Assembly: GCF_012035195.1 (NCBI RefSeq)
Contig: NZ_JAAVJH010000009.1
Coordinates: 1 to 64,000, forward strand
Origin: Sphingomonas corticis
Lineage (GTDB): Bacteria > Pseudomonadota > Alphaproteobacteria > Sphingomonadales > Sphingomonadaceae
Length of the DNA stretch: 64,000 nucleotides
Direction: 5' to 3'
Within the stretch, counting starts at the first letter, position 1; the number at the start of each line of letters is the position of its first letter. Shown here in pieces: positions 52,595 to 63,004 of this stretch. Below the pieces are notes generated by a model. It searched no databases. It was not told the origin of the DNA and worked only from the letters and a program-made list of their open reading frames with translations. Made by a program: the position numbers and the translations under genes.

Positions 52595-53128
52595 ATGGCT
52601 GCCAAGGCTCTGCATTTCGATGTCGGTGATTATGTCGTTTATCCCAAGCACGGCGTGGGCCGGGTCATCGAGCTGCAGAAACAGGAAATCGCGGGCATGC
52701 AGCTGGAGCTGTACGTGCTGCGCTTCGAGAAGGAGCGCATGACGCTGCGCGTGCCCACGAACAAGGCCGAGTCGGTCGGCATGCGCAAGCTGTCCAGCGA
52801 CAAGACCATGCGTGAGGCGATGGAGACGCTGAAGGGCAAGCCCAAGGTGAAGCGCACCATGTGGTCGCGCCGCGCGCAGGAATATGAGGCCAAGATCAAC
52901 TCGGGCGACCTCGTCTCGATCGCGGAGGTGGTGCGCGACCTGTTCCGTGCCGACGACCAACCTGAGCAGAGCTATTCCGAGCGCCAGATCTTCGAAGGGG
53001 CGACCAGCCGCCTGGCGCGCGAGCTGGCCGCGATGGAGCAGATCGACGAGCCCGCCGCGCAGGAGAAGATCCTGGATATCCTGCGCAAGGCCGCCGCGAT
53101 CTACAACAAGGACAAGGTGCCCGCCTGA
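52595..53128 (+). CDS. carD: CarD family transcription factor (CdnL-like)
   Basis: 177 residues: FDVGDYVVYPKHGVGRVIEL begins the RNA-polymerase-interacting Tudor-like domain, VPTNKAESVGMRKLSS and KVKRTMWSRRAQEYEAKINS lead into the DNA-binding helical domain. CdnL/CarD stabilises open complexes at rRNA and housekeeping promoters. The 189-base leader upstream contains no gene. Strong hairpin directly after the stop. Confidence 0.96.
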   Translation: MAAKALHFDVGDYVVYPKHGVGRVIELQKQEIAGMQLELYVLRFEKERMTLRVPTNKAESVGMRKLSSDKTMREAMETLKGKPKVKRTMWSRRAQEYEAKINSGDLVSIAEVVRDLFRADDQPEQSYSERQIFEGATSRLARELAAMEQIDEPAAQEKILDILRKAAAIYNKDKVPA

Positions 53129-53135
53129 GCATCTG

Positions 53136-53164
53136 TTTACAACTGTAATCGAACGCGCTAGAAG
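53136..53164 (+). promoter_or_regulatory. Candidate promoter of the DUF2807 cluster
   Basis: TTTACA (53136-53141) and TAGAAG (53159-53164) are spaced by 17 bases in an AT-rich stretch after the carD stop. The start would fall near 53171, inside the left arm of the following hairpin. Moderate consensus match. Confidence 0.4.
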
Positions 53165-53211
53165 GCGCATCGTCCCCGTTCGGAGAGTGACGATGCGCCT
53201 TCTTTCCTTCC
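53161..53211 (+). terminator. 14-bp perfect hairpin with T-rich tail: carD terminator that contains the next start codon
   Basis: GAAGGCGCATCGTC (53161-53174) and GACGATGCGCCTTC (53189-53202) pair perfectly around a 14-base loop, followed by TTTCCTTCC. It has the form of a strong intrinsic terminator for carD. The right arm contains the ATG (53193-53195) of the DUF2807 gene and the loop contains its GGAGAG ribosome site. Confidence 0.7.
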
Positions 53212-53918
53212 TGCCGCTGCCCCTCGTGCTGGTCGCCACCCCCGCCGCCGGCGACCACGGACCCGGCCTCGTGCCGCAGCGGCAGGGCGACGCGTCCCTC
53301 TACACCGTCCGCGACTTCGATCGCGTGTCGTTCGGAACGCCGGGGACGGCGCAGGTCCGCGTCGGGCCGTCCTGGTCGCTCCGCGTCACCGGTCCGGCCG
53401 CCGCGCTGGAGAATGTGCGCGTCGTGGTGGAGCGCGGACGGCTGGAGATCGGACCGCGCTGGCGCGAGCGGAAGGTGTCCGACGCCGACCGCCGCGTGCG
53501 CATCGAGGTGACGATGCCCCGGCTGGCGGAGGTGGCGCTGGGCGGCTCCGGCCGGGTGGCGGTGGACGAGGTGACGGGCGACCGCTTCGCCGCCGCGCTG
53601 GGCGGCAGCGGAACGATCGCCTTGCGGAAGCTGGCCGTCGGGCAGGCCACATTCTCCATCGGGGGATCGGGCGAACTGGCCGCCGCGGGCACCGCGCGGT
53701 CGCTCGACGTCAATCTCGGCGGGTCGGGCAAGGTCGTCGCGCCCGAGCTGCGCGCCACCACCGCCACCGTTTCCGCGGCGGGATCGGGCAGCGTGCGTGC
53801 CACCGTGGACGGCACCGCCACCGTCTCGCTGGTGGGCAGCGGCGGCGTCGACCTGGGGCCGCAGGCGCGCTGCCGCGTCACCCGGATGGGCAGCGGCCGG
53901 GTACGCTGCGGCGGTTGA
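53193..53918 (+). CDS. DUF2807 family exported beta-helix protein (first of three)
   Basis: 241 residues. Signal peptide (LLSFLPLPLVLVATPAAG), then FDRVSFGTPGTAQVRVGPSW and repeated GGSG/GSG turns every 18-22 residues (LGGSGRVAV, LGGSGTIAL, IGGSGELAA, LGGSGKVVA, AGSGSVRA, MGSGRVRCGG), the putative auto-transporter adhesin head/GIN beta-helix. Function unknown. The start codon lies within the terminator-like hairpin after carD. Confidence 0.87.
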   Translation: MRLLSFLPLPLVLVATPAAGDHGPGLVPQRQGDASLYTVRDFDRVSFGTPGTAQVRVGPSWSLRVTGPAAALENVRVVVERGRLEIGPRWRERKVSDADRRVRIEVTMPRLAEVALGGSGRVAVDEVTGDRFAAALGGSGTIALRKLAVGQATFSIGGSGELAAAGTARSLDVNLGGSGKVVAPELRATTATVSAAGSGSVRATVDGTATVSLVGSGGVDLGPQARCRVTRMGSGRVRCGG

Positions 53919-53934: not shown

Positions 53935-53956
53935 GTGTATTGCTGAAACAATACAC
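53935..53956. promoter_or_regulatory. Operator-like palindrome GTGTATTG-CTGAAA-CAATACAC
   Basis: A perfect inverted repeat of eight bases with a six-base spacer, AT-rich in a GC-rich setting, 16 bases after the first DUF2807 stop and 16 bases before the second DUF2807 ATG. It suits a dimeric repressor (for instance PadR or GntR type) or a small mRNA hairpin. No regulator gene is adjacent. Confidence 0.5.
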
Positions 53957-62163: not shown

Positions 62164-62359
62164 GGATTCGTTCGGCGGCGGGTCGGCTTGTCCGAACCCG
62201 TCCGACGACGCGGGACTTGCTCCCGCGTCGGCCGCTCGGCAACGACGAAACCCGGCCATGGCGGTCTCGATCGCCGGCTCGTGCACCCGCGGCCAGTCGG
62301 CTTGCAGCGCGCGGACAGCCGGCCTTGTCCACGCCGTCACCCGCCGCTAGCCCGCGACG

Positions 62360-63004
62360 ATGCGCCTTCTCCTCCCGCTTCTCGCCCTCCTCGCCCCCGC
62401 CGTCGCCCAGGCGCAGCGCGCCGACCGGGCCACGCCCGGCTGGGTCCGCGTGCGGCTGGAGACCGCCGATGGCCCGATCGTGCTGGCGCTCAACCAGCGC
62501 CGCGCGCCGATCACCACCGCCAATTTCCTGCGCTACGTCGATGACGGCCGCTTCGACGGCGTCAGCTTCTATCGCACCGCCCGCAACAAGCGGTCGCCGC
62601 AGTTCGGCTTCATCCAGTCGGGCATCCGCACCGACGCGCGCCGCTTCCTCGACATGATCCCGCACGAATCGACGCGGCAGACGGGCATGAAGCACCTCGA
62701 CATGACCATCTCCATGGCACGCAAGGGGCCGCCCGGGTCCGCCAACGGCAATTGGTTCATCACCGTCGGCCCGATCGCGGCGATGGACTGGACGCCGCAG
62801 AACCCCGGCTATGCCGCGTTCGGCCGTGTCGTCGGCGGGCAGGCGACGGTGAAGCGCATCCTCGCCGAGCCGACGGGCCAGCAGATGAACGGCACGCTGA
62901 TGCTGCGCCCCGTCCGCGTGAACCGCGCGGTGCGGCTGGACGGCGTCGCGAAGCCCACCGGCCGCCCGCGCCCCTGGCTGATCGAGCGGCGCAAGGACGG
63001 CTGA
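62360..63004 (+). CDS. Exported peptidylprolyl isomerase, cyclophilin type
   Basis: 214 residues with a signal peptide ([17 protein letters not shown]). [49 protein letters not shown], and [10 protein letters not shown] are cyclophilin blocks; the usual active-site Arg-Phe-Gln residues are partly recognisable (FYR, then [19 protein letters not shown]). Periplasmic proline isomerisation in envelope-protein folding is likely. Confidence 0.92.

Follow-up and report, generated by a model that had tools for sequence, protein, structure and literature searches.

The junction between carD and the gene that follows it in the window (the whole 64,000-nt stretch of Sphingomonas corticis DNA that was analyzed) raises the question of how a gene can stay independent of transcripts that leak in from its upstream neighbor. 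The carD stop codon ends at 53128 and the next ATG lies at 53193, leaving a gap of 64 nt, and the gene that begins there is the first of three DUF2807 genes downstream of carD. The initial annotation had proposed that a hairpin at this place insulates the DUF2807 cluster from carD transcription both by termination and by hiding the start codon in read-through RNA. The relevant features are the following:

52595–53128, + strand: carD, the proposed source of read-through transcripts (Pfam CarD_C, E 2.8e-25; CarD_TRCF_RID, E 1.3e-17)
53136–53150, + strand: TTTACAACTGTAATC, in which the predicted -35 (53136–53141) is overlapped by a BlaI/CopY-type dyad, TACAACTGTA (53138–53147), from pattern counts and ortholog leaders
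53159–53164, + strand: predicted -10, TAGAAG, weak, 17 nt after TTTACA and matching in position an ortholog -10-like hexamer
53160–53174, + strand: left arm of the hairpin, from the inverted-repeat listing; the transcription start predicted from the promoter position, near 53171, falls within it
53175–53188, + strand: loop with the Shine-Dalgarno sequence GGAG (53182–53185), from sequence and fold
53189–53203, + strand: right arm, including the ATG (53193–53195) of the first DUF2807 gene, from sequence and inverted repeat
53200–53212, + strand: U-rich stretch, a putative U-tract, within signal-peptide codons (8 of 13 bases are T)
53193–53918, + strand: first DUF2807 gene, 241 aa, with a signal-peptide-like N-terminus (Pfam PF10988, E 1.9e-34)
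53935–53956, + strand: GTGTATT-N8-AATACAC dyad before the second DUF2807 gene, given as context and lying outside the hairpin, from sequence and pattern search

The hairpin is a perfect inverted repeat, with AGAAGGCGCATCGTC at 53160–53174 and GACGATGCGCCTTCT at 53189–53203 being 100% complementary over 15 bp and spaced by 14 nt. The stem had been described as a perfect one of 14 bp with a T-rich tail; it is perfect and the tail is T-rich (8/13), but the length is 15 bp. As had been claimed, the ribosome site GGAG lies in the loop and the DUF2807 ATG lies in the right arm. A translation start at 53193, within the stem and not downstream of it, agrees with the orthologs of the first DUF2807 gene, which have a similar signal-peptide-like N-terminus at the same place. 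The folding energy of the hairpin RNA is -28.1 kcal/mol (z -4.38; none of 200 shuffles was as low).

Structures of this kind are rare in the window. We expressed stem strength as an effective length, in which contiguous pairs are counted and G-U pairs count half. Among the 1,176 ATG triplets on both strands, only the junction ATG and its opposite-strand mirror exceed 11.5, and among all 3,937 ATG/GTG/TTG triplets the junction ATG is the highest (15.0), followed by five others at 12.0–14.5 that contain 2–5 G-U pairs. None of 3,000 shuffles of the leader reached the observed stem. Of 12 short-range inverted repeats of at least 13 nt listed for the window, the junction hairpin is the sole one that is perfect and has non-overlapping arms. 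A search of the window against Rfam at the gathering score gave no matches, and a search of the same genome for the repeat gave only chance-level partial matches elsewhere. The consensus terminator scan, which permits loops of 3–8 only, did not call the hairpin. The 15 nt of the right arm recur without change at 62356–62370, where they open another signal-peptide-like ORF; this second copy has no adjoining inverted partner and is probably a chance occurrence.

For comparison we collected 224 carD junctions, consisting of 144 from genomes of the genus (of 284 with a carD match) and 80 further loci, the two sets sharing some genomes. In 181 of the 224 (Sphingomonadales) it was possible to assign a start to the gene after carD; the counts are based on these and exclude the remaining 43. 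A screen for perfect-stem terminators missed many obvious ones and was replaced by a terminator score; likewise, a start-hairpin measure based on whole-window energy was misled by multi-helix folds and by some wrong start calls, and was replaced by the contiguous-stem measure. In much of the sampled Sphingomonadales (carD junctions L068–L147 and those from the genus), the gene after carD is of DUF2807 type, and a compact terminator usually separates the two.

A positive-scoring terminator follows carD in 170 of the 181 junctions and is absent from 11. In eight of these 11 there is no recognizable carD terminator: the window (G000), G183, G013, G014, G036, G082, G164 and G010. Of the remaining three, G012 has a degenerate or weak terminator. 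In the other two, G112 (also L207) and L099, the place of the carD terminator is taken by inverted repeats centered on CCCCGG...CCGGGG that lack a good U-tract; G112 has no strong start lock. The eight terminatorless junctions are also the shortest, with 64–91 nt from the carD stop to the next start, compared with at least 107 nt in the other 173.

All seven of the best start-codon stems among the 181 junctions, ranked by effective length (G014, G000, G183, G036, G013, G164, G082), occur in seven of the eight junctions that lack a recognizable carD terminator. These stems have 13–16 pairs and effective lengths of 12.0–15.5, with the start codon in the 3′ arm, and in shuffled leaders the observed stem was reached in 0 of 3,000 cases for six loci and in 3 of 3,000 for G082. 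If all pairs are counted equally, the stems of G012 and L090 match the shortest of the seven at 13 pairs (three G-U pairs each), and these two loci have this stem despite a terminator-like hairpin upstream; the remaining 172 junctions have 11 pairs at most. As to conservation in relatives, which had been named as a check, the stem is found in this form in seven genomes that fall into two groups, and it is not generally conserved. All of these counts refer to related loci with few lineages behind them, rather than to independent events.

Closure of the ribosome site was modelled as the cost of opening positions -14 to +3. In read-through RNA, the eight terminatorless junctions and G012 together take ranks 1–9 of 181. 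The translational insulation that had been proposed has good support from modelling and from the relatives. The eighth terminatorless junction, G010 (L031), owes its predicted closure to another hairpin, formed by an operator-like dyad whose extension reaches into the Shine-Dalgarno sequence. Closure ranks of L099 and G112 are 12th and 49th of 181, though neither has a positive terminator score. When the junctions are ranked instead by read-through cost minus that of a generic own leader, the eight are found at 2, 3, 4, 5, 8, 9, 15 and 18 of 181, and not at 1–8.

When the seven start hairpins are aligned, 95.2% of the pair cells are standard pairs, compared with 31–58% when the arms are slid against each other. 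The five mismatched cells of 105 lie at the outer end (three) and inner end (two), and all belong to the second group, that of G013, G014, G036, G082 and G164. G-U pairs are used in six of the seven stems. Changes on both sides are found in 6 of the 15 pairs, a number that 2 of 500 shuffles reach; the count of further pair types in the same alignment is not above that in shuffles (421 of 500). Much of the covariation consists of the difference between the two groups. The window and G183, which make up the first, differ at two pairs, of which one is A-T against G-C and the other G-C against G-U.

The start-hairpin genomes form two groups in trees of both the DUF2807 protein and carD (G164 being outside the carD tree). 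A single origin of all seven is not rejected by either tree (p-AU 0.139 for the protein and 0.471 for carD), but we favor separate origins because the positions of the arms differ between the groups, and the start hairpins probably had more than one origin. A broader reading, which we put forward tentatively, would be that the loss of the terminator at this junction was repeatedly offset by a read-through lock on the next start, with no replacement terminator arising in the gap; three structurally different locks (that of the window and G183, that of the five genomes of the second group, and the operator-based hairpin of G010) would then have arisen separately, two of them doubling as terminators with a U-tract in the signal-peptide codons.

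Whether the DUF2807 gene could escape such a lock depends on where its own RNA begins. The candidate promoter that had been placed at 53136–53164 is supported in its position by the leaders of orthologs, although its -10 hexamer is weak and the consensus promoter scan gave no call for TTTACA (53136–53141) and TAGAAG (53159–53164) at a spacing of 17 nt. For the leader comparison, 35 of 36 genus matches with E of 1.3e-52 or lower were used, G076 being left out. TTTAC(A/G)-N3-GT(A/G) is present in all 35 leaders, 53–60 nt before the ATG, and in 34 of them the best hexamer 16–18 nt downstream of TTTAC(A/G), with the spacing chosen by the script, starts with TA. The pattern TTTACANNNGTAATC is found in 37 of 295 genus genomes, compared with 1 of 295 for the reversed control, and the DUF2807 promoter is the only site of TTTACANNNGTARNC in its own genome. 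Since the promoter sits where the ortholog family has it, transcription is expected to start near 53171.

The same stretch contains a candidate operator. The BlaI/CopY operator consensus is given as TACANNTGTA in PMC7253601, and this core is matched by TACAACTGTA at 53138–53147. A BlaI-family gene is present in the same genome (PF03965, E 3.1e-33), with TACAGGCGTA, one core base off TACANNTGTA, upstream of it. In two relatives (L052 and L059) the dyad precedes a blaI-like gene, the genes being identified by eye from the translation. These sites before blaI-type genes suggest that the DUF2807 cluster, with its predicted operator over the -35, may be under BlaI control. The BlaI/CopY-type dyad was noted at L283 as well as at L052 and L059.

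In the model, the lock is lost over a few nucleotides within the left arm. The predicted cost of opening the ribosome site of the window is 21 kcal/mol for RNAs with 5′ ends up to 53161, 17.7 at 53165, 9.9 at 53168 and 7.8 at 53171, so that the lock switches between 53165 and 53168 and is gone for 5′ ends from about 53168. The idea that the full hairpin would form only in carD read-through RNA agrees with the modelled difference between 21 kcal/mol and the 7.8 kcal/mol for a start at 53171. In the window and G183, only the first base of the -10 precedes the left arm; in the other five loci the arm ends 0–2 bases after the -10. The arms are shifted by about 8 nt relative to TTTACA between the two groups, while the distance from TTTACA to the ATG is constant at 57–60 nt in all seven. 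Because the predicted promoter overlaps the left arm, the gene’s own RNA should escape in both groups, lacking all or most of the arm. Over the seven loci, the modelled opening cost is 19.3–27.9 kcal/mol in read-through RNA and 7.8–12.9 kcal/mol in own RNA. The corresponding medians for 28 orthologs with a terminator-like hairpin upstream are 11.5 and 6.3 kcal/mol (G012, one of the 28, has 23.4 and 5.4), which suggests that the own leaders of the seven are freed from the lock but are not unusually open.

The hairpin has the G+C-rich stem-loop of an intrinsic terminator (15-bp stem, -28.1 kcal/mol), and in the window the trimmed stem is followed by TTTCCTTCC, a candidate U-tract, for a score of -3.4. 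The seven start hairpins score 16.1, 3.1, 2.6, 1.4, -3.4 (the window), -6.9 and -10.7 on this scale, and take ranks 1–7 of 181 for start-region terminator score; among 27 other orthologs no start region scores above -33.1 (one gave none). By comparison, the upstream carD terminators of 27 of the 28 orthologs score from 34 to 61, the exception being G012 at -14.6. Nucleotides 7–20 of the ORF contain 8–9 T in the seven start-hairpin loci, compared with 2–7 in the 28 orthologs. The U-rich codons and the scores are consistent with selection for a modest terminator written into the signal-peptide codons. The claim that the hairpin ends carD transcription is plausible, but by the score it is borderline.

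We consider it probable that the hairpin is a read-through insulator that combines a translational lock, partial termination of carD transcripts and escape of the gene’s own RNA. carD read-through RNA would carry both arms and form the 15-bp stem, hiding the start codon and its surroundings, so that carD transcripts would yield no DUF2807 protein. With its G+C-rich stem and the U-rich codons after it, the hairpin would also end part of the carD transcripts, in place of the ordinary terminator that is absent in this lineage. RNA from the gene’s own promoter, beginning near 53171 inside the left arm, could not form the stem and would be translated. With a BlaI-type operator over the -35, this would amount to a regulated gene that is shielded from its upstream neighbor. 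Sequence comparison and modelling show the stem and how rare it is, its occurrence where the terminator is missing, the covariation, the U-rich codons and the modelled switch; the transcription start, termination, translational repression and BlaI control are inferred.

The principal alternative, which we regard as unlikely, is that the hairpin locks translation without ending transcription, and that carD transcripts stop farther down, for example by Rho acting on the exposed, untranslated DUF2807 RNA. The window score of -3.4 fits this alternative, as do the values below zero in three of the seven start hairpins and the behavior of terminatorless G010, which closes the ribosome site without a start-region terminator score (rank 43). 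Against it stand the U-rich codons that follow the stem in all seven start-hairpin loci and, at that level, in none of the 28 other orthologs, as well as the start-region terminator scores of the seven, which occupy the first seven ranks of 181. The converse, that the hairpin is mainly a relocated carD terminator and overlaps the start codon only because the gap is short, is suggested by the gap being shortest where the ordinary terminator is missing and by the U-rich tail after the stem. We find it decidedly improbable, given that G010 closes the ribosome site without a U-tract, that G012 is closed with a start-region score of only -33.1, and that in both clades the left arm lies within the promoter, letting the own RNA escape.

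Two further explanations concern the inverted repeat itself. It might be a binding site for a regulator, with the RNA hairpin incidental, in keeping with the other dyads (BlaI-type and GTGTATT-N8-AATACAC) in the same leaders. The chances of this appear very small: all but one of the seven stems depend on G-U pairs, and these would be mismatched in double-stranded DNA; the right arm keeps its place at the start codon, but the position of the left arm against the promoter differs by about 8 nt between groups; and the repeat has no counterpart elsewhere in its own genome beyond chance-level partial matches. A fortuitous repeat is the least credible explanation of all. ATGCGC starts and GCGTAT/GTGTAT promoter stretches occur often, and these by themselves give some six paired bases, but shuffling the leaders gave the observed stem in none of 3,000 cases for six loci and in 3 of 3,000 for the other one, and the stem is both rare in the window and coincident with missing terminators.

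The logic of such a lock is already known. In the leaders of phage T4 gene e (lysozyme) and I-TevI, as described in PMC3014915 and PMC2988022, the long RNA from an upstream promoter sequesters the Shine-Dalgarno sequence and/or the AUG, and a promoter just upstream of the gene yields an RNA that lacks the 5′ strand and is translated. The carD junction resembles both in the sequestration of these elements in the long RNA, here in silico at 21 kcal/mol, and resembles gene e in having its predicted own promoter within the sequence that encodes the 5′ strand, here in silico with an ortholog-supported position and a cost of 7.8 kcal/mol from 53171. It differs in being a chromosomal junction after carD, whereas gene e and I-TevI are late genes in phage transcription units. 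It also goes together with the absence of an ordinary terminator, and the U-rich codons after its stem hint at a role in termination.

The transposase gene of IS10/Tn10 is likewise guarded from outside promoters, in that read-through RNA folds over the ribosome site and own RNA lacks the 5′ part. This lock shares its logic with that of the carD junction, but IS10/Tn10 is a mobile element, and we know of neither a terminator role for its lock nor a link to terminator loss in a neighbor. The hairpin also resembles the ordinary intrinsic terminators of Sphingomonadales carD genes, in that a G+C-rich stem and a U-rich stretch follow carD. Those terminators, however, consist of a compact stem and then TTTT(T), are complete before the next promoter begins and have scores of 34–61 in 27 of 28 orthologs, whereas the window hairpin shares sequence with the promoter, the ribosome site and the start codon, and its score is -3.4. 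In open papers we found no report of such a lock at a carD or DUF2807 junction, and the available portion of PMC7566282 does not mention CarD. What appears new is that the lock lies on a chromosome, that it would act as a terminator as well, and that it probably arose more than once.

The junction offers a compact and testable case of how neighboring genes may remain independent as the space between them shrinks, in which a single hairpin that spans the promoter, the ribosome site and the start of the coding sequence would distinguish leaked from proper RNA. If such locks generally offset missing terminators, part of what appears to be ordinary 5′ structure in bacterial genes would be read-through insulation, and signal-peptide codons would hold terminator sequence.

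A separate observation concerns the GTGTATT-N8-AATACAC dyad. By a loose pattern, dyads of this type are present in 93 of the 144 genus carD junctions, before the DUF2807-type gene that follows carD, while the core of the dyad is found at one place in the genome of the window. In L010, L019 and L270, the symmetry of the dyad reaches outward to the edge of the Shine-Dalgarno sequence (the arms of L010 are CCCGGTCATGTGTATT and AATACACATGACCGGG), so that read-through RNA could be partly locked at these loci despite the terminator that is present.
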